A stretch of 64,000 bases of DNA from a virus, in the IMG/VR virus record IMGVR_UViG_3300009104_001827, positions 147,118 to 211,117 of that record; one strand, 5' to 3'. The translations under genes were made by a program, and so were the position numbers. This document shows positions 3,649 to 61,818 of this stretch, in pieces. The notes beneath the pieces are model-generated. The model saw nothing but the letters and a program-made list of their open reading frames with translations. It ran no database searches and was not told the origin of the DNA. Position 1 is the stretch's first letter. Every line of letters begins with the position of its first letter.

Positions 3649-3680
3649 TTAGACAAAAAAGGCATCAAGGTGTATATAAC
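3649..3680 (+). promoter_or_regulatory. Probable promoter (good -10, weak -35)
   Basis: TATATA (3673-3678) overlapping TATAAC (3675-3680), with a poor upstream match TTAGAC at 3649. The -10 ends seven bases before the ATG at 3688, the same tight geometry as the nrdB and 6143 promoters. Confidence 0.4.
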
Positions 3681-3687
3681 ATACATC

Positions 3688-6116: not shown

Positions 6117-6136
6117 TTTAAAAAATAAGCTAAACT
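6108..6136 (+). promoter_or_regulatory. Sigma70-type promoter for the recombination/replication operon
   Basis: TTGACT (6108-6113), a 17-base spacer and TAAACT (6131-6136). The GTG start codon at 6143 begins after six bases, which predicts a leaderless transcript. The -35 box overlaps the stop of the preceding gene. Confidence 0.8.
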
Positions 6137-38269: not shown

Positions 38270-41200
38270 TTAGTCAGTATCTACTTTATTACCAGTATCT
38301 TCCCAGGAATCTTTCCATTTTGCAGACCCCAGTATCGACAGGAAAAGTTCCCCGTTGGGAATTATGGTTCCACCAGGAAGGGCATTCCCTATCTTCTCTT
38401 CCCATGAATCACATATTCCGCGCATTCTAGCCAGGCATTGCGAGTGCGCAGCCCCACCGATGTAAATCACTTCGCAATCACCATCTACGCCTGCGGCCCC
38501 ATATTTATCGCAGTATTCAGTTGTGATTTCAATTAGGTCTGCGTCCGTAAATCCCGGATGGCCTTTATATGGGCCGCCGGGTTGAAAAGTGTTGCTATCA
38601 CTATAATTCGATGCGACCTGCGGATTTCTAGCGAAAGCTTCAGCCTCCTCTTGGGTGTCAAAATAATCGTTGGGAAATATTGACATTGTTCCCGCTAAAT
38701 TACTGCCCTCCCGGACGCCAGCGGCGCCTTGGTGTTTAGAATTATCATGTGATCCGTCGTAATCATCAAAACCAACAACAGGTAATTTAAAAGTTCCACC
38801 CCCACTCTTTACCCACCAAGGGGGGATATGCTCACCGTCCACGTGGGGAAGAGAGTGGTTAGTATACGGAAATACCGAGTCACCCACTGGCGTACCCCCC
38901 CAACGGCCGTCAGGATTATAAGCATTCCACGGGTTCGAGGCGCCGACAACATACGAAGTTCCGGCACCAAGATGGGTAGTGAATTCATCGGACGAATTTA
39001 ACCTAAGAAACGCCTGACATTCGTAAAGCTCCCCCTTCCACCAAGCCCGGTCCCCCGGGTAATATTGCGTTCGCGGAGTCATCGTGACGTATATGTCAGC
39101 ATTATCTCCCGCGCCCTCAGGTTTCCCTCCTTCACTTAGTTCCCAGCCTCCATAATCCCAAATTCTCTCGAGATTTATATTCTCCCATAGCCAATTTCTT
39201 CCAGCAACCCATTTTCTCGTCTTATGATCGTACCAGGAAAACCCTAGTTTCTCCCTTTCTTTTGCCCTGCGTATCACCCAGTTTATCGCCGCATCGCGCG
39301 AAGCAAACATTTTAGACCCCCTACAGGTTATTGATACATCCTCAGAGTCATAAATATCCGTAGAGCCTTTCAGTATGTTGTCGCTTCCTGCTTCTGCGTT
39401 TATGTACCATTTAGTAAGCTCCTGCTTGTTTCCGGAATCTAGGTAGCTCTCTGAATAAAACGCGCCCTTCGCTCCAGTCAATAGCCAGCCCAGGGAATCC
39501 CCATTTTCACCAATGTATTCCCACTTGTTATTTGCTCCGCCAGGAGCATCATCTCCTGTTCCGTAGCCAGATGCACTTCCCCCTTCCTCATTAAATCTCC
39601 ACACCTTCCAAACGCCGCCGTCTTGGGTTTTTACTAAATCCCCCCTATAGTAGCCGGGCGGGGAATATGGACGCACCTGACAGCCGCCCCATGCCCCCGG
39701 TTCTAAGTTGTTGCCGAAACCCCAACCCGACATTTGAAGGGAGGGGTGGAGCTTTCTAAGTAATCGTTCCCATGACTTTTTTCTTAAAAGGGGCTGGTCA
39801 TAAGCCTCACCCAACCACATCGGGCCATTCGAGGAATCCGGAAGGAACTGGTTGGTGACTTTCTTCGCTCCGGACCAGTCCACCTTACCAAAAGCGTCCC
39901 CCACCTCAGTTGGGGGTGTGTTTATCGACGAATTTGCGCCCGCATCCACGTCCGCTTGCGTGGCAATACGATAGTCTCCCCACATCATCGGATGGTCCTC
40001 AGCACCCCCCATCGTTGACTCCCCGGGTACGTTGCGATATATGGGGTCCAACACGGTAGGAGATAATCCATCACTGATCTTGTCGTCATATTCCTCCTGC
40101 CACCTAGATTTACTTTCGCTAGGCGGGGGAAAGGGCTCGTAGGAGCCCAAATGCCAAAAGGCATAAATTGCGCAGGTATCCCACGCAGCTCCCACACCAT
40201 GACTGCCGCAATTTTTAGCCAAGAACAGATCTCCATCAGACAATATTACGTCTCCCGCGCAGTGAGGAAGGCTGGCGTTAGTATAAGCGCTTCTATATAA
40301 GCTTTCTCCTAGTGGTCCAGATCCAGCAGGTTGGGCGGCAGTTCCAGGCTCGCTCGCGTAATACGGCCGATACATCGCAGGCAAACCATTAGTCATAGTT
40401 TCCCAGTCGGCTGCAGACACTCTTCCATATTCCCCCCACGTCGGCCTCCAGTCGAACATTCTCCAGGGATGAAAGAACATTATGGAATTGTAAACATTAA
40501 AAAGACCCCAATCGTGGCCAACTTGACCACCGTACCAAAGGGCATCTGCACTAAGAACATTCCATCCGCTTTTCTTGGCGATAAAAGAGGAATCTCCGCG
40601 ATGCTCCAATTCGCCAATACCCAAACCTAGTTCGCTGGTCCCCGATGCGAAGTTCAGCATGTATTGCCTAATCGAGTCACCGGCACCCGTGGGCCAATAC
40701 CCATTGGGCAAGTCAAAAGTCCACTCCTCCCACTCCTCCCCAAACTCATCGACCCAATCGTCAATAGTCTCGTGAAGCTCGCCATTGACCCACTCCCGAT
40801 CCCACCCAGGGAAAACCACGGTATATCTCTTGCCCAGTTCAATATCTTTCGCCCATATTATTTCCGGGGCATAAATCGTCGATGCCAGCGGATTATATTC
40901 GTCAATTTCCTCCGCATTTATAAACCTTTCGGCAAGTTCAAACCTCAATTCTCGATTATGTCTAGCCGTATATGGCCTATCCTTCCAATTCTCAATCATA
41001 TCTTTGGCGGAATAAAGCGCGAATTTCTCAGGATTCTGGTCAGCGCCTTGATTATGAGAAGTGCAACCTCCGTCGCCGGGAGTGCCGCCGTCGGAAACCT
41101 GATTGTCGGGCCCTCCGTGATGATTGCCGATGACCCAATGCGGCTTAGTCCCTGCCCCGTCCTCAATACTGCTCTTCCAAACCCCGGTGGTCCCAGGCAT

Positions 41201-44200
41201 TGTGTCGTCCCCCCTTATACCAAGGCCTCGATTGTAGTTGTCTGTCGCAGGATCACCCCAATCACCCCAATCTTTAGCCCAGTCGTGAGGCATCAGCCAT
41301 AGGTTTCCTTTATATATAACCCTATCACCATGACGATACCACGTAGAACTGTCCCAATCAAGTATTTCCTGAAATAAATCCGTCCACCATGATTGAATAA
41401 ACTTGGTCCCGGCTTTCGGAAAATCTCCATATTTTATTGTGCCGCTCGGAATGTCGTTGTATGCCCTCCATAAGCGACGGTTACGTTTGGGGCTACGATG
41501 ATCCTGAATGGATATTATATCTCCGGCGGATATATCATTTTCCCACAACCAGTTCATACATTCCCCTACGGGGATATTAGTTAAATCCGTGACCGCCAAT
41601 TCATTGTATTGAGAACTTCGTTTCGATTGAGAGCAGTAGGAGTCCATTTGATTTTCTCGCCCACGCCAGGAATGGGCCTCATCGGGCCCAATCGTAAAAT
41701 TATTCATTCCGTGCCTTTTGAGTTGGCCGTAAGCTTCCATGACATCTGTCATCGGGCCAAACCCAAAGTCTACCGCTCGCTGAGGGAATTTATAAAAACC
41801 AGCATATCGATTGAGCGAGCCCGCTCCCTGTTGAGCAAGGAAGGCTAACCAATGCTCGTAATTAGAGATTCCGGGGGCGGTATGTGGAGCCCCCTGCGAC
41901 TGGCGTCTGTGCGGTAGTTGATTACCGGAAGAAAAGACTTGTCCCGCAAGCGTAAAGGTAGGATATGAACCAAAATTGACGCCAATCCATACCTCTAATC
42001 TCTGTGTCCAATCCCACCCTTGGCGAAGCTGATTAAGAGCAAAAACCCAATCCCAAACGCTATAACCGTTGCCCGCATCCAAGCCTTCCAATTGTTCTGC
42101 CCCAGCGGGAAGATACCTCTGCCAGTAAGTTGGAGAGGGAACCTCACGGTTAATAAAAGTATAGCCTTGAGTATCAGTCAATTCTATAGTTTCTTTATTA
42201 TCTGAGGTTCGTTGATTCCATCCTGGAACATCGAATACGTCAAATTCCCCCAATCCGGAAAAGTTGTCGGGTTGTCGTTGATCAAGGCCCGCTGAATAAT
42301 TTCGATAATCCACCGCAAGGGACACCTTGCCAGCCTTGTCGCCCCTGTCTGCCCATGCCAGCGCGCAATGGCCGCCTATTTTTTCGGCGAAACCCGTGTA
42401 AATTTGGCTATGACCAATGGAGGTGGCGTAACCTCGCAGGAACCTTTTATACGGATCGCCGCCCCACTTTTGGCCCAGCTCCATTGTTTGGTGCATTATG
42501 CCTATCTGAGTTCGCCACCTGTGCTCCTTTTCGAGGCGGTCCACAGACCACATACTACTGTAACCAGTTTTCCCAGCCCCGGCCCCGTCTTTATCGGGAG
42601 CTATGTATGTGCCGTTAGGAATGGGCGCACCACCCTCAATACCTCCTTGACCCTCTTCCACCCTCCAATGCATTCTATATACTGTTCCACCAAAGTTGAA
42701 CCTATCGCCGGGCTTCAAAAATGTATAATTATCGTGAGAAATTGCATCGCCGACCAAACCGTGATTGTGATACTTGCCCAATTTGGTCATGGTGTTGGAG
42801 TTCGGATCCAACCAACCCCAAGACACATTCTCGCCGACGCCTTGGTTTTCTTGCCCGACAAGCAAACTGAATTGCGACTTCCAACTTTGATGAGCCTTAT
42901 CCCCGAAGGGCAAAGACCACGGGTCGCACATCCAGGCCCCAAACATGGCGGTTGAGGGGAAATTTATCCTTCTATACTCCAAATGACCCTGCAAGAGCAA
43001 AGAAAATACAGAGTCAGGTATTACCTCCGGACAACCTTGAGTAAGCGCTCCGGTCTGCAGTCCCAATATTTTTGTCAGACTCCCGCGTCCTGACGCCGCA
43101 GTAAGCCTTGGGTTCTTTGGTTCGTCCTTCACTCCAAACTGAGAGCTCTCAGCTTTAGTGGTATCAAAATCGCCAACAATCCAAGCATCATCATTAAATC
43201 TGTCATTGAAATTTCCGCCGAAAATAGAGTAGCCGAAAGTGTACGCCAAAGAATCTCCAAACGAGCTATGCAAGCCCCAAGTATCGGTCGCAGCCTCTGA
43301 GTATCTCTCAATTTTGGAGTATATTGGCCATTTTATGTCAGGATGATACTCTCCTTCATTCCCTGCGGTTGCCATATCGGGCACCTCGGAAATGCTACCC
43401 GCCGGCTTCCAGCTGTAAGTTTCGTCGCCAGTAAACCGGTTCATAAATTTAAACGCATCAAGCGCGCCTCGGGGGTGGTGAGTAGGGAGTGCTGGGGCCC
43501 ATTGGGAAACGCTCATCTCCCCCATCACTTGCCACCAATTATACATGCCATCAGGAGGATTTTGTGAATTATTCGCATGATTCACTACGCCGGGAAAGTA
43601 ATAATTGTTCCATCCGTGCTCAGAAGCATTAGAGAATAAATCGATCAAGTCCAGTTGACCTGCTGTGGGCCATGATTTAAAATTGAAGTCCCGTATAAAG
43701 CTCGGCGCGAACGGATCTAGTGAACCCCACCCGCAGCTCGCGTCTCCCCACGCTAAGCTCACTACATGGGAAAGCATGTTCGTCCAGGTGACAGTTATAC
43801 CGGTCGGCGCATTGGAGCCAGACACAAAACTGCCCAATAGATTATGGGTAAAATCTATATATTCGGTGTCGAGCAAATTCTTCTCATTCACTATATTGGT
43901 ATTACTGTCGCCATAGAATGGGTTGACAGATTCTCCGAAAATCGAACCTGCCGTCCCGAGATATTCGTTGTCTTGCCCTCCATAATATAAATACATAGTC
44001 CCTGACCCCCCATAATCGACTTGACTGGTGACGCCGACGCCCGCATGGTCAAGGTCTAGGTGCCACCCTGAAATTCTTTCGTCGGCCCAGGTTGACGCAT
44101 TAGTTCGAAGGGAGGTATAGCTCTTTCCTCCAATAATATCCCCGGAGGAATCCGGGGCATACATGACCTGGAAGCCCTTGGAAAATAACTCCCCGCTCTC

Positions 44201-47200
44201 GTTTACATAACTAATTGTTGCCCATCTATCAAGCTGCCATTCCCTGTAAAAATATTGAATTGGGTTAACATTAATCATTGACGCGGAGGACTCCCTCCAA
44301 TACAATTCCCCAAGAGAACTGCCAGGTTCAAAGGAAAAGAAATGGTCTTTAATACATTGGTAAATCGTGCCTTTATGAGTTACAAAATCAGGTTCGCGAC
44401 CAATAAACGCAGAACCCGCCTGATCGGCATTGGACCCTGCTACCATATCACTACCATAACCGTGATGAAATAGTGTATTTGGTTGCCCGTTTAGGAGCTG
44501 CGAATGCCCAGAGGGAAGGCTTGTTCGGTATGATTTGTTTGATACCCATGCGTCAGCCAATCGATTAATTTCCGGGAGAACCTTGTCCCGAATATCCTTC
44601 GACCCCTTACGACACAACTTGCCATCGATAAATTGTGGCCACTTTCGAATTCGCCGCTTGGGTTTACTCCAAAAGCCAAAAGAATCCATAAATACCTGCT
44701 TTGCAATAATAGGCTCACCCTCTCGACCACTTGCGTCATCAAGAATTACCGCAGGAGCCCCCTTGAACGAGTAATTCTCTAAATAAGGACGCAAACCAAC
44801 GCCCCCACATTTGTATGACCTTCCTTCCGATATAAATGTCGCACAATCACCTTGTAAAGATATGAATTCTACATTTGGAAAAATAAATTCGGGGCCATCC
44901 AAAAATTCAGATTCCAATCCGAGCGCATTCCCAAGTGAGCGCCCCTCATATTCATCCCTATCAGAGCCCGATATTTTATTCTCACCCGTTCCAAAAAGAT
45001 TTCCCGATTGAGAAAGAATGAGAGAATTATTACCAGAGGCGGCGACAGCGATAATCTCGTCTAGTTCCACGGCTTGATTGTTGTTATTACCATGAGAAAT
45101 TAAATGCGGTTTTATAAAGATTTCCCTAGTGCAGAAATGCGTGTCACCGAATGCTTTTTTATATAATTTGAAATTTGCAGTGCGGGGCATTTTAATTTCC
45201 GACGAAGGAAAAGTGTGAGTAGCACCGTCGTTTGGCATCATTCCTAATTTTCCCAAAGGGAACCATCCAGACAAACCCGTCGACCCAAGTGTGCCACCTG
45301 CGCCATTTTCCTGATTAACAAGGGCATGCATCGCCTCACCAATAGAGCCAAACGTGAGAACCTCCACGTCAGGCTTCTGCCATTTCCCTAATTTGTTGGT
45401 ATCCGCCCAATCCGACTTGAGCGTTTCAGGGGGCAGAGTCTCAAGTCCTCCGTTCTCCGTTATGCTCGGAATGGATATTTGGAGATGCTCCTGAAGTAAT
45501 GTACCTTCTACGCCTTCGCCGGGGCCGACGTAAACGACATGAGAAACGTGGTCTATCCAAACCCGACTTCCGGGCTGATAAGTTTTACCATAGGCCCATT
45601 TTTCAGGAGGTAGTGCCGGTTGCTCTATTGCGCTCCACGAAGGATCGTAAATTGGGTTAAGGCTAGAGGGGGCGGTGCCCTCTAACTTATAAAAACCTTT
45701 GCCGGACTCCCTGCCCAATCTATCGCCTAAATCGAAATCGCTTTCGATTCCCCCGGTTTTGTTTCTCCAATCTATTTGCTGCAGGGAATTGTCCCCAACG
45801 CCGAACACTTTGCCTGAGGCAGTCCTTATTAGAATGTGGTCGGAGCCAGCCTCAACTTGCAGCGCCTTATCAGAGCCATAATCCTCGTGGTCGTATAGCG
45901 TATGAGGCTCGGGAGTAAGAGTTGTACTGCTAATCTCATCCTCTATATCTGCCAGCGAATTTGTGCTCAGGTCATAGGTTTTAGTGATCGCCTTGGGTGC
46001 GGGCATCGACCATTTTTTGCCGTCCACTCGCTCAAGGGATTCGCTAAAGCCTATATCGCTAGTATTGTCGTCCTTCATGGAAACGAACACCAGAGTACCG
46101 AAAAGGTCATCTCCATCAGCGACCTGAGCGGTAACAATGTCGCCCTCATTATAGGAAGATTTCGATATTGTACTGCCTTGATATTCTGGGTCCTCACCCA
46201 TGCCGGCAGCCGCAGTATAATCGAAAAACCCAGAAAACCCGCGTGGCGAATACTTTATATGATTTTCCCAACTTCCGATGCCAGGCAAATTGGACCCGTA
46301 AATGGCGTCGTTATCAAGTATCCAACCCGCATGAAAGACAATATCCCCACTGTCATGAAATTCTTCGTTCACGGCCGCACCACCAATTTCGGCAGAAAGC
46401 AAATACCTGAATTTTCCCTCATCGCCCAGTAACCCCCATCCAGTTGGCTGACCCCAGTCATATTCCCACATGTAAAAAGTGTGATACCCTTGAGCAAGTA
46501 CGAGCGGTGGATCGAGGTCCTCATGATGACCTCCCCCATTATTCTCGGGCCACGTCCAAGCGCTCGCTGCCATCACTTTGTCCTGATCATAGCCCGTACC
46601 TGTTTCTCCAGCAACGCCATCGGCATAAGCTCGTACGTCAGGAGGGCCGTCATCGAGAATCGACCACACAACCCTATGGTCATTATACGAAATCATCCCG
46701 TATCTTGTTTGAACAATAGTGCTCCAATCTCCAGCGGTTCTTGCATCGGTCGTTTTTCCCGGAGAATACATAACTCCCCACCTTCCTTGGGTCAAAATCT
46801 CAGGCTTAATAGTTCTTAAAACAATCCCAGAAGAAGGTCTTACGTATATATGGAAGAAAATTCCTGAATCCTTCCTCCAGCCGGTCCCAGTGCCGGTAAA
46901 AGCTAGTTTCCCTACGATCTCTCCGTCAATCACGGGGAAGAGGGCATTCCCTACGCCATAATTTTCCGCATTAGACGATATTTCAGTAAAATCAATATCT
47001 ATCCCGCTCATAAAACACTCGAAGCGCTCGCCGTCCTCCTTCTTAGTTTTCTCTGCGTCAGTAATGTAAATCCATTGTCCGTATTTAGCGGTATAATACC
47101 AATTGCCGCCGGTTTTGCCCAATGACGTCAGCTTATTGTTTGCAGCCTGGGAGGCCCTGGCAAGGAAGGTGTGTCCTAATATCGGGTCTTCCACCCAATC

Positions 47201-50200
47201 CCTCATATAGGTTTGACTGACATACTTATTACGGAACCATTCGCTTTTCGCCAGGGTCCTTCGCTCAAGGGTCGACTTATGCCTGATGGCCCCGTATCGA
47301 GTGGCTCGATCTGCTTCCGTCAGGGGCCCTGCCCAATGCAGCTTTGCATATTCTTCGCCCGTCATCCAAGGGTAGAGTTCTTCTCTAGCATCAGCTACGT
47401 CAGTCCAAACATTCATATAATAATCCCAGTCGGTTTGGTCGCCATACCAAGTATAACCGGCGTAATCCTCCTTTTGTTCGTAGTCCTCTAAGGGGTATGG
47501 AAGTATCCCGGTCACCATATCTGTACTAAGTTTTCCGGCAGCACCACCAATTCCATTTCCAGCCCGGTGCTGGATCCGATATTCAGTTTTAACCTCCGCG
47601 TCCTCAGTCCATATCTCTGCGCCATATCCTAACAATAATGGAGCGTTTATGGTAAGGTTGGTCACCAGTAGTCCTGCAGGGTTATTAACGTTCCCCGCAT
47701 TTTTCACATACATCACCAATGCATTATTTCCTGCCGCTCCAGCTCCAGCCCTAAAGATATTACTAGCCCCGATGCCCTGGGGTCCGATGTCTATGGAGTT
47801 AAGCTCCCCAAACCACCCCCCATACCAGGCTGCGGTCACAGGCTTGCAGGAAACGCTATATATAAAAGCTGTCGAGTCACTCGAGGTAGTGTGGCATATA
47901 AATTCTACGCTGTGAGAGGTATGCGTGGCGACGAAAGTAAACTTTGTTTCCGTCCATCCAGACCCCAAATCTCCGACGTCAATGGCTTGGTGCCCACTTC
48001 CTGCATAATCGTTAACTAGATTTCCTCCTTGTACCGCTTCTAAGTTGTCAACAGTCGCGGTCGGCACGCCTCCCTCCCACGCCCAAATTATTGCTCCAAC
48101 ATCAGGCTCGGAGTAGGCGGTCCGGTATGAGACAAAAAACCGCACCTCATATTTCTGGCCCACCGTCAGGGGTTTTGGATAATTCGGCCCATACCTTTCT
48201 GCACTCAGTTCAGATCCTTGATGCCACTGAGTGAAGCCTGCTCCGCCAAGCTTGTCGGGATTCCATGTTCCAAGCTGAACGTATTCATTAACCGATGGGT
48301 TGAGGGATCCGGAGTCTTTATGGCCCCCGAATCCATATGTGTTAGGCGTATAATCATACCCCCAGGGCACGAGGTGCAATCTTGCCGCGCCACTGAGGCC
48401 TCCTGTTTCAACATGAGACTGTAACCCCCAATAATAATTCGCGCCCCCGTATTTACTTCGCATCACGCCTGGCTCAGTGTCGTAGCCCAACTGGCGCGAT
48501 CCCCACGCACTGCAATTGTCCTGTATAATTACAACCTTGGCGAAATTATAAACCCCCATACAGGCCAAATCAGAGAGGCTTGGCTTATTGGAGTTGTCCC
48601 AGGTGGTCGGATGATTTGGCCGGCTATAGTCGTAGCTTTTGTCAAGCAAATTACTGAGATATTCAAAACGGTTACCGTGGTTATCCAGATGCAATTCTAG
48701 CGTCTGAGCCACGTAGTGGGTCGTTTGGTTTAATTGTTCATACGCTGGATAATGCATCCCGTGGTCGCGAAGCTCCTCATCCAAGTTTGAGCCACTCGCC
48801 CCAAACCAAGATGTTGCAGTATTCCCAAACCCGTCCCTGTCGTTATTCTCCCCCCAAAAAGTCCCCCATTTTGTAACTCCGGGTAAAATTTGTTGTTCCC
48901 CAGATTTGCGAGCATGATCGTGCCAGTATGTGGTATACTTGGGGTTGCCGTTGTTGTCCACAAAATCCGGATGATCCTCTAGCCATAACCACACGTTGGC
49001 AGTCCAGTTGTCGGGAAATAATGGTCGCCACCCAAAAAGGTACTGGTGGCCATTGCCACCAGCATAACCAAGCATAGACTTATTAAAGTCCCAATTAGTC
49101 AGGTAAGATGTTGTCTCCCATTCCTCACCAGTAACCAAGTCGGGATTTATGCTGTGCCACCCGGCCTCACTGTGGATTTGAATATCCAGCATTGTATTAT
49201 CCACTGCGAAGTCGAATGACACTGTAACCTGTGATACATCAATTCCTTCATCAAGGTGAAAGGCTTGATAGAAAACGGGAGTGGCTTGCGGCCATAAAGT
49301 CGGCACCCCACCTTGTTCACTCCACCAAACCCCCACCCAGCTACTTCCTTCTGGCGCATCCAGCCAGTTCCCCGGAATAAGATTGTTTGGTATCCAGGCC
49401 GCTGGGTAGAGGGGGTCGTTCGCCGTTGCGGGTAACACGCCGTTGGGCTGCACAGACCAAGCGGTATCCTTTTTGCTGTCGGAAGAATATTGGCCCCCAA
49501 ACTGGACCCCAGTATTATAAATGTTAATCTCTTTGTGAGATTCTCGCTGAGTCAGTACGGACCATACCGCAACATCAGCGGGGGTTTTGTCCACCGTAGT
49601 AGTGACGGCTCCCTTGGCATATTGTTTATCAAATTCGTTGGAATTATAATAGGTTGCGGTGCTCGCCCTCCAATATCCATTATAGAACCAAATTAAATTA
49701 TCTACATTTGCAACGTGCCTATATACCGGGTAACCACCGGTTGGACTGGGGAGGTCGACCTTCCGGTACGATCCCGCAATCCCCACGCTGGGGTCACTGA
49801 TGGTTGTGCCGTCCTGACGGATTACATTTCCACCAAAGAACTCAATGGAACCCCAGTCTTCTTCAGCGATCCTTTTAACATCTGGATTTAAACCATTGCT
49901 GTCCGTAGCAACATAGGCTGGCCCCGTGTTTGGCCAATATTTATGGAGATAATTATTGTTTAAATTATCGAAATTTGTGCTGGCTGCATCCTGGGTAACC
50001 AGCGGGGTGATACTCTCGCTTACGCTATTCCACTCGCCAGGAATAACTCCAGGAAAGGTGTGGGCTCCAGCGCCTTGATCCCCAATTTTACTCCAAAGGG
50101 AGCCCGAGTAGGATACATATTGACCGTTAACATAATCTATATGTTCTATATATGGCTCCCAGGTTTCTCCGTAGGCAATATTGCCTTGTATTAGCGATCC

Positions 50201-53200
50201 ATATTTTACGGCTTCCCCACCCGCAAATGGGTCGGGATCGCGGTCCGTCATATGATGAATCAGGCCCCAGTTGTCATTTTGCCAAAGTTCATTTACCGTT
50301 AAATCTCCGAACGAATCAAAGGTATCGCTCCCACCATGGAACATAACATTATCCGCTCGCCTGACCTCGCCATGGGTTGCTTCGCTGTGGAAATCCAAGC
50401 CTTGCACCGGGATGTCCTTGCACCCTATAATTGACCCTAGGATTTTTACATCGCCGTCTTCTGTGACGTAGATCGTAGAATGCTCATTTGTTGACGCCCA
50501 AACAACATTATCATCTGTTAATTTTACCGGAAACGGGACCGCCGGAGCATTGCGGTTTGCAGCCAATTTAAGGCAGTTCGCCCTAAGATTATTGTCATCG
50601 TTATTATTGAGAGAGTGCTGACTCGGGCGATCCATGTATGAATAATTTGCTCGATCCTTAAGCCTATACATCGCAAGGGCGAGGCATTCAGTGCCAGATA
50701 CCGTCATGGTCTTGCTATCGTGGAAGTAATCTATAACGCAATGATTTTTGTGCGATCCCCCGTAAGGCAGGTCTAGATCTGGCCAGCCTATGTACTCCCA
50801 TTTGGGACTAATCCCCGGCTCGTCTTCCGGAAGGGCGTTTTCGATGGAGACCCATCGTTCGCCCAAATGCTCCCTTTCCTTAAACCAACTAATGGACTCA
50901 TTATCGGTCCACGGAGCTGCTTCGCGGGCTCCATTGTATTTCTTGTCGTGCCCCCACCAGCTCCGCTCATTCCAATCCGGGGTGCCCCATTCGCGCGTAG
51001 TGTTAAAGCGGTCCCCATCGTCCCATTGAGACGTTGGGTACAAATTCTGAAATTTACCATGTGGCCACGAGATGCCGTTCCAGGAAGTGAGCTTGTTGGA
51101 AATTTCCGCATTATCCCGATACGGAAAAAGCCAAGCTGGAACCATCCACCCTCTGTCATTTTGTACGGCCGCCCCCGCCATATGTCGCTCTTTGCTCCCC
51201 TCAAACCCTGCGACAACAAAATGTTCCCTCTTCTTCGTCGCAGAATTATCGGTATCTGTGCCGCCATAAAATTCCCAAGCGGGCTTTATCATCATGGTAG
51301 AAAGACTCTTAGCGTACTCCGATGTACCATCGAGAGAGAACGAGACATCATAAGCACCCTCCGCTCCGGATCGAGCCTGTCTTGCGAATGGAATATAGTC
51401 CTCAGAGTTGAGAATAAAATGAGTATTTACGACCTTGGGAACGCCCCGGTTGTCAGGCTTATCAAACCCGACGCATTCAATCCCCCCTTCTTTCCAGAAG
51501 TTTATATTGTCGTACCACGGAAGAATTCTTCCTGCGATTTTTAATTGCTCCTGAGAGGCCCACCAAGGTGTCACGCCAGCAGGATATAACTCTTCCTCCG
51601 GAATCCATGTTACATTATTATGCAAATAGGAATCTTGCTCGGCGCTAGTCTTATCGAACCAGTCTAACGGAAATGTGGCCCATGCCATCCTCTCCCATTG
51701 CGGGGCAGGGTTAGCCCGGTTATGATCTTTTGTTAGGTACGTCGCCCACCCCGCAAGGTGGGGGTCGTTTTTATTGCTTGCAATTGGGTCGCCTGCGGCG
51801 TGGTTAAAGTTGGCATATGATAAAAGGTCGAATCTGTCTTCGGCATCAATCAAATCATGAGACCAATCTCCCCAGTCTTCGGGATCGTCGCTAGAGCTAT
51901 TGAAGCTTTTATCTGTGATGCCTAGGGAGTTGTTTTCGTTCTTCCCGAATCCATATAGCTTCTTGTCTGTAGTAATAAATACGGTATTACCTCCCCCAGA
52001 CCTAACGAAATCTATGTCGGGTTCTGGGTCTAATAAGGTATCAGTCGTGCCGTTCGCGTATATTTTTACCCTTTGCAGCTCGTCGTCTTGTGCGTCCTTC
52101 AATGGGGCACACATATTATGCTTTCCAAACGTATCTAAGTTCCATTCTAAATTTGAACCGTAATATGTTTCAGGTTTGCCGTCAATTTTCTTATAATTAC
52201 TAATTCCGAGGTACCCCAACTCGGAGCTGTCCATTCCAGAGGCATACAGCTTATTATTTGAGATCATGAATCTATTTTGCCAGCCCAAACCAGCAGAAAC
52301 GGCATAGGTTTTGCTAACGGCATTATTTACGTCAAGATACGTATCTGCGTCCACATCCGGAGCCGCGCCACTTACGTTTGTAATCTTAACTGACATTGGG
52401 AGGATCGCCGTGTTCTGTAGTCCCGCAAATGAATTGCCCAATTTAAATTCTGAAACGAACCCTAAATTCCCCCTCAAGACCGTGGGCGAATTAAAGGCAT
52501 AATTAAATAAATCAACATCTTTCCTTTGTGTGCCCCCAGGGTTCTCATTAGAGAAAAGGGATAACGTCAATTCTTTTGTTGAACTCATATAGCTCTGGCC
52601 ATCAACGGCTTGCATCTCGAATGAGATATTAATATTCAAGCCGGAATTGGTAAATATATTTGACATGTTATCAAATGGCCTCAAAAGATATTCGCTTTCG
52701 CCATGAGTGGAGTCGAGTATATTTTCTGCGCTGGGACTAACTCCTCCCGCTGGTTCGCCTGAAGCATTATGAGCGTCTAAGCATGAATAAAATACCATTA
52801 CGTCATTTGATTGGCTCAGCTCGTTTTGCGTCGGCAAACTTCCGGAATCCTCATTGGAGTTCCACACCACACCTCTTTCCTTCGCGTAGACTATATCTCC
52901 CAATTCATAGGGTAAGTTATTTTTCCATTCATCCACTCGCTGCCACATGGATTCAAACAAAGACGGCTGAACGCCAGAAGACGCGCGCCGAGCGTAATAT
53001 AATATATTTAGTTCCTTTGTGAAATCTCCGGTGTCGAATGATTGATCGTGGGTCCAGGGAGCAATCTCTCCCTCTGGTCCGCTGATGTTTTTCCATTTTG
53101 GCATTACCTGCAATTTATCTCCAAGCTGCTCAAGCAGTCCTATATTAGATCCGTTGTTTTCTATTTTGAGTATTGAAGAATTTTTATGGGACACTTCATC

Positions 53201-56200
53201 GTATTGGTATTCAATTTTACTATTCATGCCGCCCAACAAAGAATCTGAATCGAGGAGCGACTCACTAATAATCCTTGATGCATACTCCACAGGTCGAACA
53301 AATACCCAAGATTCACTCACGCCAGGTACTTGGCCTGCGGGGATATCAGTATCGGCTTGCCACACATAGGTGCCATCGTGCACTGCCTCGTCAGCGGAGT
53401 AGGCCTGGTTGGAAAGCCACTGAGATGGTTCGCCGATCCTTATGTAGGGACTTTCCATAATCCCTGCGTATGTCAGTCCAAAATCAGAATAAGAATCGCC
53501 GGTGTTTATCGGCAACCTTAGGTATCTTCCTAAAACATTAGCATTGGACATAGAGGAAATAAACCCAGAGTAGGTCGTAAAGTTATTCCCGTCCGCCCCC
53601 TTTAGCTGGGGGATTAGTTTAATTGTTTGATTGGAATTGATGCTGATTTCCCCACCATCATATATTGCGCCATGATTTGGATGGCCAGTATCGGCGTTTC
53701 CTCCAGTATATATTTCAGTTGTTAACTCTATTGTTGGAGGGTATGACTCATCCTCTTTAACGAACTTAATTGGATTTACATCGCCCACTCCTCGACTATC
53801 GAGATTAAATCCTGCGTCGAGATTGAAGTCGATATCACTATCAATCGAGTCCACCCAACCCCTGAAGGCCCGTATGGCAGGATGCCTATCTTCATCTTGA
53901 TTATTCTCGTTAAGTGGGTGTGGAAGGTCTCCCGAAGAAAGGGTGTCGCCTTCTGCCCTCAGATCAACGTTCCAGTCCTCATAGTTAACACTTACATAGT
54001 CAAGCGATGCCAAAAACAAAGGGCTATCTGCATCCGGAACGCCGCCGACCCAAGTATCTATCATATGTGTTGTGGGATATTTTATTCTTGGAGTCCAGAA
54101 CTTCGCATTGTTGCCGGAGGCATCATAGGTTTTTAATCTTGGCCCAAAAATATCCAGCCTAGAGTTGAAGGCTTCAGACACGGCGTATTCGCTTGAACCT
54201 TCGGCCTTATGTATAAAATCAAAATCTCCTTCAGTTAAAAAGTATTGTGGCTCCACGCCAGCAGCGATCTCCTCTGAAGATGGATAGGTGCGATCAAGGT
54301 CAAATTCCCTACGCGCCACCGGCTGCCAATATTCACTAGGACGAATAACCAATGTATAGTTGCTCGTAAATCCACTCATAGTCCCGGAATTTATCGACAC
54401 GGGGAATTCGTAGATTTTTTTACCGACATACCCGGAAATGTCAGCCTTATATTGAAGGCCCTCTATAACGGTTGAGTTTTGCAAGTTCCCTTCCAAAACA
54501 AAATTATCATCCAATAGGGGAGTTGCATCCGAGACATAACAGAACTGTTTAATTTTAACCCGCCATTCATTGTCGTCCATTTTTACGGCGTCACCAATTC
54601 GATAGTAATTTTCATAGGTAAGATCATATGAATAATTATCCGAACCAAAGAGGTCCCTCTGTCGAATTTTGAATTTTCCATCCAATTCCTCCAACCCGTA
54701 ATATTGAGCGTAAGCCCTTCCTCGATTGTCATTATTTGCGGGATCGACATTAGGGTCAATGCGCTCTGCGGTAAATTCGTTCTCGGTAATTTCGAGCCAA
54801 GTCGTTTCGGCATATAAGTTCTTTCCTCTAAATCTGGAATATTGTAGATCTTCTACTAGGTTCGATAAAAAATACGCCGTCTCACTTGCGGACTCTTTTG
54901 GAAATATCCCAGGAACAATCCCCACACCGGCCGGATCTGCAGGAGAATCTGTATCCTTTATGCACTGAAAGCAATATGAGGCGACCGCTGCGTCTGCCTT
55001 AAGAAATAAAAACTCAGCACTATCCAAAAGGTTCGTATTCTCATCTGTGGGATAGCGCCCGGCCCACTCCTGGTAGGTCAGGCTTTCCCCCGAATTCGGG
55101 TCGACCATAGTAGGGGTTTTCTCCTTAAGTGTGACAAGATCTCCGACCTTGTAATTTTCGGCCTGCTCCATATCCCACGGAGCTATATCATACAATCTTT
55201 CAGACATTAATCCAAGTCCGCTTGCTCCATCAAGAGAATTAAACCACTGAAGTCCTAGCGTAATCCCCGATTTGTTATTCGGGGGAGAAGTAGATAGGCC
55301 CGTCTGTGACGACTTAAAGATTTTAACCCAACCATCGTAGAGGGTAATCTGAGTAACCATGGATAATGGTGAAATCGCGGTATTGCTGAGAATACTTAGC
55401 CTGGTCCACTTCTCTTTGTTTAAAATTGGATCGTTATCTGCCGATGCCCCCATCGAGACATTAGCCTTAAAGAATAAATTTAAATGTAATGGAAAAAAGT
55501 TTTCATTATCATTCTTTAGGGATTTGTAATATATTTTTGCTCCGTCGTCTTGATATACGTATACTGTGTTATGCTCGTTTCCCGGAGAAACCCATTCAGA
55601 ATATACTTTCTCTTGTCTCCAGGCATCACACGCGATTGCTGTGGTCACCTCCCACCAATCTTCCCGTGGGACCCTAGTCATATTGCCTCCGGAATATTCC
55701 TTGGTATCATTCCATTCAGGTATATTTGCCAAGGTCTGAACGTTGCCCTGGGGATTTCCCGTACGATCAACAGTTAAACTGAAAATAGATTCCTGCTGGA
55801 GGTCCGATCGCCCCAAATCTATAAAGTGTTTTGCCTCAAATAAATTTTGCGATGTATCCGCATCAATCGTAGTCGACAAAACCTGATTGCCATCGGCAGT
55901 AAGATCTTTAAACTTACTACCGTCAAAACCCTTAAAGCCAGTCTGAAGCAACCCTAATGCTGCACTAAACTCTGAATCCGACATCTCGTCAGTTCTTTTT
56001 AGAATAGGCAGAAAAGCGGCGTCAACGTGAGAATTGATAAATTTCTTGCCTTCATTCTCGATCTGATCTGCCCTGCCGAGCTTGTTGCCTAATATTAAAT
56101 AGTGACAGGGGTTGTCTCCACTAACCGAGGCGCTACCGGTTATAGTCTTAATTGAGAGCAATTTGGTCAAAGCCTGATCCTGGGTGCTGGACTCAAGTTC

Positions 56201-58039
56201 GTAGTCATAATCTACATTCGTTTTTGGTTGTCCATGATCTAAGCTCATCGAGCCCAGCGCCCCATGCCCGCCGACATACATATTGCCATTACTGAAAATT
56301 TGGGGCGTTACGAATTCGATTCTCTGCCGAGAAAGCACATCCTCGACCATCATGATATACTTGCCTAACTGTGTACTGCCCTTATTGGAGCCGGGGTGAA
56401 CACCCCCTCTTCTCCTCGCGTGAACATAGCCCCTCCTCATATAAAAAAATGGCGTAAGATCTCGATATTGAAAATGTAGAAGATCTCCCTCGGAGGCCAG
56501 GTCAGTATTAATATTGTTGGGGTTCAATATTCCCTGAAGATAACGATTTATGTCGGATCTGGATATTTGGGATGTAGAATATGTGCTAATCCCTGACGTG
56601 GAGCTGTAGGAGCTTAACTTTGTGGTCCTTCCAAAGGTGACCGCCAATCTAGGCTGCCCCCCATGATCCTTTCGGAGGGTTTTTGTATAAATAAATATAT
56701 CATATCCGCCATCTTGGTACGGGCCGCTTTCACTGCTGGCGCCAGAATACCATGACCGGCACTTATCCCTGCTATATCTTTTTAAGGGTTTTGCGAATTT
56801 CACCAATAAGTGACCGAAGATATTGGAAGACCCAGTAAAGTCTGCCATTCTTATGCGGCCCGCTTCTCGCTGTACGGGTTGGCCTGCTAGGTTTGTTTGG
56901 CCTTGGTACGAGCTATTATGGGCAAACTTTTTGATTTCAAATTTTTTCTCAGAGAAATATTTGTATATTGATGCAAGCGATGAATTTGGGCGATTAATTT
57001 GAGAGTCATACTTAACCCAATACTCATTAATCTCACCGCTTTCCGAACCGTACCATGGGGTTCTTTCGGAATTCCATGATCCGTTCGCATTAGAAGCGCT
57101 CGAGGGGTAAGTTTTAGCGGCCCCAACCTCTTTTTTGCACATGGCTAAGGAGGGAAATCCAATTAAATTAAACGTTTCCGTCCAGTTGGTTAAATCATCG
57201 ATGTTTGCCAGTCCAGATGGGGGATTATAGCTAACTATATCGCCAGGAAAATAAGTTAGGCCGGAATTCCACTGGCTAGACCCAGATATGTTGTCCTCGG
57301 CACTCATTTTTGCATCTAAAAAATCGAAGGAAGCCCCCATAACAGCATTAAGCGAAGTTGACGAAAATCCAAACCTCCTGTCGGGGAGCGCACTTATATC
57401 ATTGTCCCCAAACCCGTATTCAGGATAATCCACAATATATCTATCTATTATCTGCCCATCTTGCCCAGTTGCCGGTGAGGCCGTTCTTGCGGATCCGCCC
57501 CCAAAAGAAATTTCCGAAACGGGCCTTAATTGAATCGGGTTCTTAGATGAACCAGATTTGGGAATTAGACAAGAATAACACACTAGATATTTCATGTCAA
57601 TAAACTCTGATAAATTTAAACAAATTTCATTGTCGTGCATTATTCCTCCCGTCGCCCATTCACTCTTGGCATCAACCTCCCTCAAGCTCCCGGCCTCGCT
57701 AATTGAGTAGTCTTGTGCGAGTTCAGCGAAACTCTTAAAATAGGTATTAAAGTTTGCGTCAGATACTCCTGCTCCGGCACTCTTCAGGACGCAGACATAT
57801 AAATTAAATTGACTTGGTTTTGATCTAGATTTTCTATCCAAGAAATCGTCTGCGCCAGAGACCTTGTGAACAACCTGCCCCAAATCATAGTTTTTGTACG
57901 GCCTGAACCTTGCGTACCACACGGGGAGCGCCCCAGGAAGCCCAACCCTTGAAGCGCCGAAAAGTGTTCTTGTTGTCGATATGGTCGTGGGATCGGCAGA
58001 AAGAAAGTTTAAATTAAAATCTATGTTTACGCCACCCAT
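38270..58039 (-). CDS. Giant adhesin-like virion protein (6589 residues)
   Basis: One uninterrupted frame of 19.8 kb, ATG at 58039. It is rich in Gly, Asp, Asn, Tyr and especially Trp. At least ten copies of a short carbohydrate-binding-type module (W...Y..GD.V.Y......W) are visible, near residues 255, 773, 960, 1537, 1725, 2635, 4150, 5565, 5925, 6125 and 6325. RCC1/BNR-like propeller blades occur in two groups. The first, near 1926, 2022 and 2520, includes KKLYGFGKNENNSLGI. The second, near 4071, 4343 and 4400, includes GKVFGVGDNSL and GNLFGTGEN. No signal peptide, membrane segment or enzyme motif was found. It shares modules with the small fibres at 582-1859. Most likely a long tail adhesin binding surface polysaccharide. 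A sigma70-type promoter at 58585-58613 drives it together with the GNAT-like gene. Confidence 0.85.
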   Translation of the reverse strand: MGGVNIDFNLNFLSADPTTISTTRTLFGASRVGLPGALPVWYARFRPYKNYDLGQVVHKVSGADDFLDRKSRSKPSQFNLYVCVLKSAGAGVSDANFNTYFKSFAELAQDYSISEAGSLREVDAKSEWATGGIMHDNEICLNLSEFIDMKYLVCYSCLIPKSGSSKNPIQLRPVSEISFGGGSARTASPATGQDGQIIDRYIVDYPEYGFGDNDISALPDRRFGFSSTSLNAVMGASFDFLDAKMSAEDNISGSSQWNSGLTYFPGDIVSYNPPSGLANIDDLTNWTETFNLIGFPSLAMCKKEVGAAKTYPSSASNANGSWNSERTPWYGSESGEINEYWVKYDSQINRPNSSLASIYKYFSEKKFEIKKFAHNSSYQGQTNLAGQPVQREAGRIRMADFTGSSNIFGHLLVKFAKPLKRYSRDKCRSWYSGASSESGPYQDGGYDIFIYTKTLRKDHGGQPRLAVTFGRTTKLSSYSSTSGISTYSTSQISRSDINRYLQGILNPNNINTDLASEGDLLHFQYRDLTPFFYMRRGYVHARRRGGVHPGSNKGSTQLGKYIMMVEDVLSRQRIEFVTPQIFSNGNMYVGGHGALGSMSLDHGQPKTNVDYDYELESSTQDQALTKLLSIKTITGSASVSGDNPCHYLILGNKLGRADQIENEGKKFINSHVDAAFLPILKRTDEMSDSEFSAALGLLQTGFKGFDGSKFKDLTADGNQVLSTTIDADTSQNLFEAKHFIDLGRSDLQQESIFSLTVDRTGNPQGNVQTLANIPEWNDTKEYSGGNMTRVPREDWWEVTTAIACDAWRQEKVYSEWVSPGNEHNTVYVYQDDGAKIYYKSLKNDNENFFPLHLNLFFKANVSMGASADNDPILNKEKWTRLSILSNTAISPLSMVTQITLYDGWVKIFKSSQTGLSTSPPNNKSGITLGLQWFNSLDGASGLGLMSERLYDIAPWDMEQAENYKVGDLVTLKEKTPTMVDPNSGESLTYQEWAGRYPTDENTNLLDSAEFLFLKADAAVASYCFQCIKDTDSPADPAGVGIVPGIFPKESASETAYFLSNLVEDLQYSRFRGKNLYAETTWLEITENEFTAERIDPNVDPANNDNRGRAYAQYYGLEELDGKFKIRQRDLFGSDNYSYDLTYENYYRIGDAVKMDDNEWRVKIKQFCYVSDATPLLDDNFVLEGNLQNSTVIEGLQYKADISGYVGKKIYEFPVSINSGTMSGFTSNYTLVIRPSEYWQPVARREFDLDRTYPSSEEIAAGVEPQYFLTEGDFDFIHKAEGSSEYAVSEAFNSRLDIFGPRLKTYDASGNNAKFWTPRIKYPTTHMIDTWVGGVPDADSPLFLASLDYVSVNYEDWNVDLRAEGDTLSSGDLPHPLNENNQDEDRHPAIRAFRGWVDSIDSDIDFNLDAGFNLDSRGVGDVNPIKFVKEDESYPPTIELTTEIYTGGNADTGHPNHGAIYDGGEISINSNQTIKLIPQLKGADGNNFTTYSGFISSMSNANVLGRYLRLPINTGDSYSDFGLTYAGIMESPYIRIGEPSQWLSNQAYSADEAVHDGTYVWQADTDIPAGQVPGVSESWVFVRPVEYASRIISESLLDSDSLLGGMNSKIEYQYDEVSHKNSSILKIENNGSNIGLLEQLGDKLQVMPKWKNISGPEGEIAPWTHDQSFDTGDFTKELNILYYARRASSGVQPSLFESMWQRVDEWKNNLPYELGDIVYAKERGVVWNSNEDSGSLPTQNELSQSNDVMVFYSCLDAHNASGEPAGGVSPSAENILDSTHGESEYLLRPFDNMSNIFTNSGLNINISFEMQAVDGQSYMSSTKELTLSLFSNENPGGTQRKDVDLFNYAFNSPTVLRGNLGFVSEFKLGNSFAGLQNTAILPMSVKITNVSGAAPDVDADTYLDVNNAVSKTYAVSAGLGWQNRFMISNNKLYASGMDSSELGYLGISNYKKIDGKPETYYGSNLEWNLDTFGKHNMCAPLKDAQDDELQRVKIYANGTTDTLLDPEPDIDFVRSGGGNTVFITTDKKLYGFGKNENNSLGITDKSFNSSSDDPEDWGDWSHDLIDAEDRFDLLSYANFNHAAGDPIASNKNDPHLAGWATYLTKDHNRANPAPQWERMAWATFPLDWFDKTSAEQDSYLHNNVTWIPEEELYPAGVTPWWASQEQLKIAGRILPWYDNINFWKEGGIECVGFDKPDNRGVPKVVNTHFILNSEDYIPFARQARSGAEGAYDVSFSLDGTSEYAKSLSTMMIKPAWEFYGGTDTDNSATKKREHFVVAGFEGSKERHMAGAAVQNDRGWMVPAWLFPYRDNAEISNKLTSWNGISWPHGKFQNLYPTSQWDDGDRFNTTREWGTPDWNERSWWGHDKKYNGAREAAPWTDNESISWFKEREHLGERWVSIENALPEDEPGISPKWEYIGWPDLDLPYGGSHKNHCVIDYFHDSKTMTVSGTECLALAMYRLKDRANYSYMDRPSQHSLNNNDDNNLRANCLKLAANRNAPAVPFPVKLTDDNVVWASTNEHSTIYVTEDGDVKILGSIIGCKDIPVQGLDFHSEATHGEVRRADNVMFHGGSDTFDSFGDLTVNELWQNDNWGLIHHMTDRDPDPFAGGEAVKYGSLIQGNIAYGETWEPYIEHIDYVNGQYVSYSGSLWSKIGDQGAGAHTFPGVIPGEWNSVSESITPLVTQDAASTNFDNLNNNYLHKYWPNTGPAYVATDSNGLNPDVKRIAEEDWGSIEFFGGNVIRQDGTTISDPSVGIAGSYRKVDLPSPTGGYPVYRHVANVDNLIWFYNGYWRASTATYYNSNEFDKQYAKGAVTTTVDKTPADVAVWSVLTQRESHKEINIYNTGVQFGGQYSSDSKKDTAWSVQPNGVLPATANDPLYPAAWIPNNLIPGNWLDAPEGSSWVGVWWSEQGGVPTLWPQATPVFYQAFHLDEGIDVSQVTVSFDFAVDNTMLDIQIHSEAGWHSINPDLVTGEEWETTSYLTNWDFNKSMLGYAGGNGHQYLFGWRPLFPDNWTANVWLWLEDHPDFVDNNGNPKYTTYWHDHARKSGEQQILPGVTKWGTFWGENNDRDGFGNTATSWFGASGSNLDEELRDHGMHYPAYEQLNQTTHYVAQTLELHLDNHGNRFEYLSNLLDKSYDYSRPNHPTTWDNSNKPSLSDLACMGVYNFAKVVIIQDNCSAWGSRQLGYDTEPGVMRSKYGGANYYWGLQSHVETGGLSGAARLHLVPWGYDYTPNTYGFGGHKDSGSLNPSVNEYVQLGTWNPDKLGGAGFTQWHQGSELSAERYGPNYPKPLTVGQKYEVRFFVSYRTAYSEPDVGAIIWAWEGGVPTATVDNLEAVQGGNLVNDYAGSGHQAIDVGDLGSGWTETKFTFVATHTSHSVEFICHTTSSDSTAFIYSVSCKPVTAAWYGGWFGELNSIDIGPQGIGASNIFRAGAGAAGNNALVMYVKNAGNVNNPAGLLVTNLTINAPLLLGYGAEIWTEDAEVKTEYRIQHRAGNGIGGAAGKLSTDMVTGILPYPLEDYEQKEDYAGYTWYGDQTDWDYYMNVWTDVADAREELYPWMTGEEYAKLHWAGPLTEADRATRYGAIRHKSTLERRTLAKSEWFRNKYVSQTYMRDWVEDPILGHTFLARASQAANNKLTSLGKTGGNWYYTAKYGQWIYITDAEKTKKEDGERFECFMSGIDIDFTEISSNAENYGVGNALFPVIDGEIVGKLAFTGTGTGWRKDSGIFFHIYVRPSSGIVLRTIKPEILTQGRWGVMYSPGKTTDARTAGDWSTIVQTRYGMISYNDHRVVWSILDDGPPDVRAYADGVAGETGTGYDQDKVMAASAWTWPENNGGGHHEDLDPPLVLAQGYHTFYMWEYDWGQPTGWGLLGDEGKFRYLLSAEIGGAAVNEEFHDSGDIVFHAGWILDNDAIYGSNLPGIGSWENHIKYSPRGFSGFFDYTAAAGMGEDPEYQGSTISKSSYNEGDIVTAQVADGDDLFGTLVFVSMKDDNTSDIGFSESLERVDGKKWSMPAPKAITKTYDLSTNSLADIEDEISSTTLTPEPHTLYDHEDYGSDKALQVEAGSDHILIRTASGKVFGVGDNSLQQIDWRNKTGGIESDFDLGDRLGRESGKGFYKLEGTAPSSLNPIYDPSWSAIEQPALPPEKWAYGKTYQPGSRVWIDHVSHVVYVGPGEGVEGTLLQEHLQISIPSITENGGLETLPPETLKSDWADTNKLGKWQKPDVEVLTFGSIGEAMHALVNQENGAGGTLGSTGLSGWFPLGKLGMMPNDGATHTFPSSEIKMPRTANFKLYKKAFGDTHFCTREIFIKPHLISHGNNNNQAVELDEIIAVAASGNNSLILSQSGNLFGTGENKISGSDRDEYEGRSLGNALGLESEFLDGPEFIFPNVEFISLQGDCATFISEGRSYKCGGVGLRPYLENYSFKGAPAVILDDASGREGEPIIAKQVFMDSFGFWSKPKRRIRKWPQFIDGKLCRKGSKDIRDKVLPEINRLADAWVSNKSYRTSLPSGHSQLLNGQPNTLFHHGYGSDMVAGSNADQAGSAFIGREPDFVTHKGTIYQCIKDHFFSFEPGSSLGELYWRESSASMINVNPIQYFYREWQLDRWATISYVNESGELFSKGFQVMYAPDSSGDIIGGKSYTSLRTNASTWADERISGWHLDLDHAGVGVTSQVDYGGSGTMYLYYGGQDNEYLGTAGSIFGESVNPFYGDSNTNIVNEKNLLDTEYIDFTHNLLGSFVSGSNAPTGITVTWTNMLSHVVSLAWGDASCGWGSLDPFAPSFIRDFNFKSWPTAGQLDLIDLFSNASEHGWNNYYFPGVVNHANNSQNPPDGMYNWWQVMGEMSVSQWAPALPTHHPRGALDAFKFMNRFTGDETYSWKPAGSISEVPDMATAGNEGEYHPDIKWPIYSKIERYSEAATDTWGLHSSFGDSLAYTFGYSIFGGNFNDRFNDDAWIVGDFDTTKAESSQFGVKDEPKNPRLTAASGRGSLTKILGLQTGALTQGCPEVIPDSVFSLLLQGHLEYRRINFPSTAMFGAWMCDPWSLPFGDKAHQSWKSQFSLLVGQENQGVGENVSWGWLDPNSNTMTKLGKYHNHGLVGDAISHDNYTFLKPGDRFNFGGTVYRMHWRVEEGQGGIEGGAPIPNGTYIAPDKDGAGAGKTGYSSMWSVDRLEKEHRWRTQIGIMHQTMELGQKWGGDPYKRFLRGYATSIGHSQIYTGFAEKIGGHCALAWADRGDKAGKVSLAVDYRNYSAGLDQRQPDNFSGLGEFDVFDVPGWNQRTSDNKETIELTDTQGYTFINREVPSPTYWQRYLPAGAEQLEGLDAGNGYSVWDWVFALNQLRQGWDWTQRLEVWIGVNFGSYPTFTLAGQVFSSGNQLPHRRQSQGAPHTAPGISNYEHWLAFLAQQGAGSLNRYAGFYKFPQRAVDFGFGPMTDVMEAYGQLKRHGMNNFTIGPDEAHSWRGRENQMDSYCSQSKRSSQYNELAVTDLTNIPVGECMNWLWENDISAGDIISIQDHRSPKRNRRLWRAYNDIPSGTIKYGDFPKAGTKFIQSWWTDLFQEILDWDSSTWYRHGDRVIYKGNLWLMPHDWAKDWGDWGDPATDNYNRGLGIRGDDTMPGTTGVWKSSIEDGAGTKPHWVIGNHHGGPDNQVSDGGTPGDGGCTSHNQGADQNPEKFALYSAKDMIENWKDRPYTARHNRELRFELAERFINAEEIDEYNPLASTIYAPEIIWAKDIELGKRYTVVFPGWDREWVNGELHETIDDWVDEFGEEWEEWTFDLPNGYWPTGAGDSIRQYMLNFASGTSELGLGIGELEHRGDSSFIAKKSGWNVLSADALWYGGQVGHDWGLFNVYNSIMFFHPWRMFDWRPTWGEYGRVSAADWETMTNGLPAMYRPYYASEPGTAAQPAGSGPLGESLYRSAYTNASLPHCAGDVILSDGDLFLAKNCGSHGVGAAWDTCAIYAFWHLGSYEPFPPPSESKSRWQEEYDDKISDGLSPTVLDPIYRNVPGESTMGGAEDHPMMWGDYRIATQADVDAGANSSINTPPTEVGDAFGKVDWSGAKKVTNQFLPDSSNGPMWLGEAYDQPLLRKKSWERLLRKLHPSLQMSGWGFGNNLEPGAWGGCQVRPYSPPGYYRGDLVKTQDGGVWKVWRFNEEGGSASGYGTGDDAPGGANNKWEYIGENGDSLGWLLTGAKGAFYSESYLDSGNKQELTKWYINAEAGSDNILKGSTDIYDSEDVSITCRGSKMFASRDAAINWVIRRAKEREKLGFSWYDHKTRKWVAGRNWLWENINLERIWDYGGWELSEGGKPEGAGDNADIYVTMTPRTQYYPGDRAWWKGELYECQAFLRLNSSDEFTTHLGAGTSYVVGASNPWNAYNPDGRWGGTPVGDSVFPYTNHSLPHVDGEHIPPWWVKSGGGTFKLPVVGFDDYDGSHDNSKHQGAAGVREGSNLAGTMSIFPNDYFDTQEEAEAFARNPQVASNYSDSNTFQPGGPYKGHPGFTDADLIEITTEYCDKYGAAGVDGDCEVIYIGGAAHSQCLARMRGICDSWEEKIGNALPGGTIIPNGELFLSILGSAKWKDSWEDTGNKVDTD

Positions 58040-58554
58040 TACTTGCTAAAAATTACCTTTGAATATTTATCGTCTATGGGTTCTATTTTTCCACCCATAA
58101 ACTTTAGCCATCTAATACCGAGGCTATTATCCGCCTCAACAATATTAACCAAATGATCAAATTCTTCCCCAAACAGCCAATCAAAATGCTCTCTGGATAT
58201 TCTCATAAATTCATATACTGCAAACATAGCTTTAAGGTTGCCAAATGACTTAAAAAAGTCGCTCTTAGATTTAATCATGTCCAGAGAATTCCTAGAGCCG
58301 AGCACCCAGACCTGACCTATGCGTTCTTGAGGGGAATGGGCGACCCCGGTGGAGCCGATATATGTTTCGTCTTTTAAGCAAAAGCTAATTGTTCGAATTG
58401 ATCTGTTGAAGGTTTCATAAACATGCTTTTCGTGGTTTGGCCACCCGAGATAATCCGAATGTCGCGAGTCCACGTTCCTTGGATTCAATGATAGCTCGAT
58501 AATATCTGAGTCGATGACATCCCTGACATAACCGTGTTTTCCTAATATTTTCAT
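58039..58554 (-). CDS. GNAT-like protein related to phage Gp13 family
   Basis: 171 residues. The layout follows GNAT acetyltransferases: SIRTISFCLKDETYIGSTGVA forms the central strands, VWVLGSRNS resembles the T7 Gp13/DUF2833 motif, and the end (EADNSLGIRWLKFMGGKIEP) matches the last helix and strand seen in GNATs ('N-x-x-x-I-R-W-L-K-x-M-G-F'). The acetyl-CoA loop (R/Q-x-x-G-x-G/A) is not clearly conserved, as is common in the phage branch. Its stop overlaps the start of the giant gene by one base, so it may modify or assist that protein. A leader of about 30 bases with AGGA precedes the ATG. Confidence 0.65.
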   Translation of the reverse strand: MKILGKHGYVRDVIDSDIIELSLNPRNVDSRHSDYLGWPNHEKHVYETFNRSIRTISFCLKDETYIGSTGVAHSPQERIGQVWVLGSRNSLDMIKSKSDFFKSFGNLKAMFAVYEFMRISREHFDWLFGEEFDHLVNIVEADNSLGIRWLKFMGGKIEPIDDKYSKVIFSK

Positions 58555-59255: not shown

Positions 59256-59257
59256 AA

Positions 59258-60478: not shown

Positions 60479-60484
60479 AAAAAA

Positions 60485-61816: not shown

Positions 61817-61818
61817 TT

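Follow-up and report, generated by a model that had tools for sequence, protein, structure and literature searches.

The protein described here, a chain of 6589 residues (about 700 kDa; protein A) encoded by a siphovirus-type jumbo phage, is probably a virion-attached, modular and fast-evolving glycan adhesin. Its gene runs from ATG to stop on the minus strand (Table 1) and takes up 19,770 bases (30.9%) of the window, by which we mean the whole 64,000-base stretch analysed, the end (positions 147,118 to 211,117) of the 211,117-base virus record IMGVR_UViG_3300009104_001827. The first-pass annotation had already read the product as a giant modular adhesin, and this is still the best reading in view of its hypervariability, the polysaccharide-modifying genes flanking it and those of its modules that recur in a small fibre and in a tail fibre. 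A chain of this length may, as that annotation proposed, reach across a thick layer of extracellular polymer. The strongest recognisable element of the protein, a series of RCC1 repeats, had been missed.

The gene is real and unbroken. Contig 3300007515_000003 carries it without a single difference in 19,770 bases, contig 3300013113_000869 differs at one site in 19,233 compared bases, and the last 1400 residues of protein A are identical in contig 3300013116_000380. Since the same full gene is found in separate contigs, an assembly join was rejected, and the single frame of 6589 residues covering about 31% of the window, as first reported, is confirmed. Homologues of 5895 and 3846-3847 residues in a conserved gene order also speak against an artefact, either as an assembly join or as a chance open frame, and the probability of one is negligible.

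Table 1. Position of the giant gene, its recognisable parts and its neighbours in the window
Feature	Position	Strand	Evidence
Giant gene, protein A, 6589 aa	38270..58039	-	ORF, identical contigs, homologue B
Conserved N-terminal part, residues 1-720	55880..58039	-	49% identity to B over 700 aa
CBM5/12-like module, residues 257-299	57143..57271	-	Profile searches
CBM5/12-like core, residues 1143-1159	54563..54613	-	Profile built without A
CBM5/12-like module (weak), residues 1704-1746	52802..52930	-	Profile; B above cut-off at 1673-1712
RCC1-like repeat 1, residues 1911-1945	52205..52309	-	Alignment with B, profile
RCC1-like repeat 2, residues 2009-2040	51920..52015	-	Over Pfam cut-off in genome search
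RCC1-like repeat 3, residues 2512-2538	50426..50506	-	Weak alone, conserved in B
Long insert separating RCC1-like repeats 3 and 4, residues ~2595-3955	46175..50257	-	Trp-rich
RCC1-like repeat 4, residues 4060-4090	45770..45862	-	Over Pfam cut-off
RCC1-like repeat 5, residues 4329-4360	44960..45055	-	Over Pfam cut-off
RCC1-like repeat 6, residues 4390-4415	44795..44872	-	Profile
RCC1-like repeat 7 (tentative), residues 4604-4625	44165..44230	-	Alignment with B
Hypervariable C-terminal region, residues ~4700-6129	39653..43942	-	Strain G053; 5739-6129 without counterpart there
CBM5/12-like module, residues 5561-5601	41237..41359	-	Profile searches
C-terminal cap with YIGG..QCLAR motif (conserved), residues 6459-6589	38273..38665	-	Residues 6459-6579 31% identical in B
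Downstream 246-aa gene	37519..38259	-	Beside the giant in all relatives seen; less conserved than the other neighbours
Upstream 171-aa gene	58039..58554	-	PHROG 308 (T7-like internal virion protein); same place in relatives
Divergent cassette: four genes with sulfotransferase domains (the last a fusion with GT25), followed by a capsular-polysaccharide-synthesis-type glycosyltransferase	58656..62532	+	
Small fibre-like protein, three CBM5/12-type modules	582..1859	+	Pfam CBM_5_12, 39.2 bits, E 7e-10

A long homologue, protein B (5895 aa), is encoded on a 204,906-base contig, where the 171-aa and 246-aa genes and those for the terminase, the presumed capsid protein and a probable portal are conserved with it, and its local matches to A are collinear along both chains. 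Two further phages have relatives of 3846 and 3847 residues, flanked by the same pair of small genes, so that the order small gp13-like gene, giant, 246-270-aa gene is common to all of them. This size series (3846, 3847, 5895 and 6589 aa) in a conserved slot separates fixed from swapped parts and opens a direct test of how giant phage adhesins grow. Identity between A and B is 57% at residues 1-100 and 67% at residues 401-500, among the best windows, and drops to about 10-40% across most of the remaining chain. Residues ~190-710 are also conserved in the two shorter relatives, and residues 6459-6579 retain 31% identity even in B. The N-terminal part is likely to be the attachment end, its ~700 conserved residues most likely anchoring protein A to the particle. 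In both shorter giants (L186:3393-14936, 3847 aa, and L187:3485-15025) a glycine-rich hydrophobic insert lies within the conserved N-terminal part, and a DUF4214-like domain just under the Pfam cut-off is present in the former and in B and was not found in A.

Between these ends the chain appears to change fast. Of the genes around the giant, 12 share 89-98% identity between the close strain G053 and the phage of protein A (capsid 97%, terminase 96%, PhoH 97%, sigma factor 94%, minimum 89%), whereas the giant of G053 is only 36% identical over residues 5097-5738 and 49% over residues 6130-6589, and the ~390 residues from 5739 to 6129 are missing. The giant therefore diverges faster than other virion genes, a tempo measured in a single comparison with the sole divergent close strain. 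Fixed ends enclosing a fast-changing interior are what one would expect of a protein that recognises the host, and the C-terminal third would be the host-contacting part, ending in the conserved cap. The 246-aa gene beside the giant, 78% identical in G053, co-varies with it and is a candidate assembly partner or chaperone.

Most of the chain, Trp-rich stretches included, has no match to anything. No match to any of the three thirds of protein A was found by tblastn among 50,697 phage records, its N-terminus has no relative among 84,980 prokaryote genomes and matched no solved structure in a PDB profile search, and PHROG searches with all pieces returned no tail family and one match, an RCC1 family. 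The absence of any sequence link to known receptor-binding proteins, or of the N-terminus to a solved structure, counts against the adhesin reading. So do two AlphaFold models with pLDDT 28-29, one for residues 3950-4650 with B (two-row alignment, pLDDT 28) and one for residues 184-710 with three relatives (four-row alignment); neither model was used for fold searches. The protein had also been described as Trp-rich. This holds for A, with 3.4% Trp overall and 11-29 per 500 residues past residue 2000 (short last bin excepted), but the trait is not conserved, B having 1.9%.

Protein A has seven RCC1 propeller repeats, of which six are good and one is weak, in an order common to A and B. Pfam RCC1_2 matches two stretches of A (42.9 bits against a cut-off of 22; best E 3.7e-11, in the 43640-47239 piece) and also B (39.4 bits), and the three single matches over the cut-off in the 211-kb record all fall within the giant frame. 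The seven repeats of A, placed by eye and alignment, start at residues 1911, 2009, 2512, 4060, 4329, 4390 and 4604, and their partners in B at 1985, 2082, 2567, 3856, 4095, 4157 and 4423, with similar spacings in A and B (98/97, 503/485, 1548/1289, 269/239, 61/62 and 214/266). A profile made from six B repeats recovered six in A, five at 3.0-11.5 bits and repeat 3 at -0.6, while 200 shuffled copies of A gave no match of at least 2 bits. In a PDB profile search, repeats 4-7 matched RCC1 structures (E 2.7e-4) and repeats 1-3 had no match.

These repeats are dispersed over ~2,700 residues, with inserts of up to ~1,550 residues; the large insert between repeats 3 and 4 is poorly conserved except at residues 3529-3684. 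Judged from the sequence, the repeats may fold and close as a propeller, and an RCC1-type propeller with long inserts would most likely be the scaffold presenting variable modules, including the CBM5/12-like glycan-binding ones. It is possible, though rather doubtful, that all seven form one propeller clasping adhesin domains on its loops, the ~1,550-residue insert included. If true, new binding modules would evolve as propeller-loop insertions and not only at the fibre tip. Our literature search on phage RCC1 propellers with inserts found nothing.

The first-pass annotation had counted a CBM-like motif at least ten times in the chain. The core is indeed over-represented: W-x(4-9)-[YF]xxGxx[VIT] occurs 12 times where shuffles give 2.1 (at most 9), and [YF]xxG[DESQN]x[VIT] 16 times where they give 3.0. 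Only about three copies are clear of noise, a profile made without protein A finding three clear ones (residues 259, 1143 and 5562) and four weak. Pfam CBM_5_12 (PF02839) scores 12.9-18.5 bits in A, below the cut-off of 26.2, so these modules are filed as CBM5/12-like only, and this too weighs against the adhesin reading. The same family is above the cut-off in B (29.2 bits), in the small fibre and in a tail fibre of 3810 residues ending in an S74 chaperone domain, and CBM5/12-like matches occur in several frames of the genome including both fibres; the claim that modules of A recur in the small fibre was therefore correct. By contrast, 'built of glycan-binding modules' was too strong a description of protein A, as the CBM5/12-like modules make up a few hundred of its 6589 residues and the rest is mostly unmatched. 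A glycan is the putative target of the protein.

Sulfotransferase and glycosyltransferase genes adjoin both A and B, as would be expected of a phage handling surface polysaccharide; in the window, the sulfotransferase genes stand four in a row (58656-61816), divergent from the giant operon. The giant gene itself lies in the region of the terminase/capsid operon and not near the tail operon, and the stop of the 171-aa gene overlaps its start codon (TAATG). This upstream gene matches PHROG 308, 'internal virion protein' (E 2.4e-10), with Pfam Phage_T7_Gp13 at 15.7 bits, below the cut-off of 25. Both the position and this match to a T7-like family count against an adhesin. Large ejection proteins are known from podoviruses and N4-type phages, and protein A might likewise be internal to the virion or ejected from it, reaching the cell with the DNA. 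Such a role would suit its upstream neighbour, whose distant relatives in autographiviruses adjoin ejection genes and tail-tube B, and the glycine-rich hydrophobic stretch of the 3847-aa relative, which could insert in a membrane. However, A and B lack this stretch, Pfam and PHROG searches found no lysozyme, transglycosylase or polymerase domain in A, and its extreme C-terminal hypervariability and the CBM5/12-like modules common to A and tail or fibre proteins fit ejection poorly, which makes an ejected protein very unlikely.

Elsewhere in the record, a predicted siphovirus-type tail, encoded far from the giant gene, is indicated by a frame of 3032 residues with a match to tape-measure proteins at its end, by a minor tail protein of gpM type, by the S74-capped fibre and by a J-like fibre of 1649 residues in the tail operon. 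Protein A, with no tail family among its PHROG matches, showed no homology to central fibres of lambda J/Tal type, for which the genome has the separate J-like protein. With this central fibre, the S74-capped fibre and the small fibre already present, and the giant encoded near head genes, protein A could instead form a filament, whisker-like or decorating head or tail, with environmental polymers (mucus, marine gel, biofilm) as its target and not a specific host receptor. RCC1-like proteins are present in the GAP32 virion and eleven in the hairy-tailed phAPEC6 (PMC5259590, PMC7247149), but phage CBB is whiskered and yet has no homologue of the GAP32 RCC1 protein (PMC5259590), so RCC1 is no whisker marker. 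Rapid block-wise divergence between close strains also fits host tracking better than general stickiness, and we consider such a filament unlikely. If the adhesin reading is right, protein A would be carried on the virion and would hold the phage to cell-surface polysaccharide, after which the J-like tail fibre would commit the particle, so that the giant would bind first.

For the presumed major capsid protein, the 50,697 phage records gave no match and IMG/VR gave 298 relatives, which places the phage in an uncultured group known here from environmental contigs only. In a wider set of related phages, variable large proteins of ~400-1911 residues are encoded downstream of PhoH, in the stretch up to the homologue of the 177-aa gene (35039-35572), and count in favour of the adhesin reading. 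This stretch is in the same neighbourhood and is not the identical slot, as the giants are on the other side of PhoH. In one related phage, an 1889-aa protein beside PhoH (L205:8323-13992) has several immunoglobulin-type domains.

Giant phage proteins, CBM-rich long adhesins and virion RCC1 proteins are already known (PMC7162821, PMC8540738, PMC5259590, PMC11370258). Predicted proteins of huge phages reach 7,694 residues (Al-Shayeb et al. 2020, PMC7162821), some of them tentatively annotated as structural, and protein A is in this size class. Long Tal adhesins known from siphophages that infect lactic acid bacteria, as in Oenococcus phage Vinitor162 (PMC8540738), are elongated and modular with several CBMs along the chain, but they have ~2,170 residues, sit at the tail tip and carry other CBM families, and a sequence relation to A was not detected. 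RCC1-type repeats as in A are found in proteins of Rak2-like phages (GAP32 gp1, phAPEC6) and of W70 (W70_237-239), and mass spectrometry detected them in virions of GAP32 (PMC5259590) and W70 (PMC11370258); those of A differ in their dispersal and long inserts. One published suggestion for phage RCC1 repeats is DNA ordering (PMC7247149), and protein A supplies a further function hypothesis for them in virions. As far as our searches reach, three things are new: RCC1 repeats dispersed between very long inserts, a size series in one conserved slot, and the hypervariability measured here.

The nearest parallel in a related phage is a 1466-aa RCC1 protein (L190:6218-10618) in the same region, beside PhoH, with about eight RCC1-like repeats split, as in A, by an insert (5 + 3 around ~850 residues). 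It has less than a quarter of the size of A, lies on the other side of PhoH and shows no detectable homology outside the repeats, whose profile found only two weak repeats in A. Its insert contains Asp-box-looking motifs (DDFGDNW, SDGGKSF) and is possibly a propeller inserted in a propeller; a sialidase-like identity, suggested by eye, is not claimed as there was no PDB match. At the start of the window, a 54-base unit is repeated in tandem (122-234; 2.1 copies, 93%) inside the open frame there.
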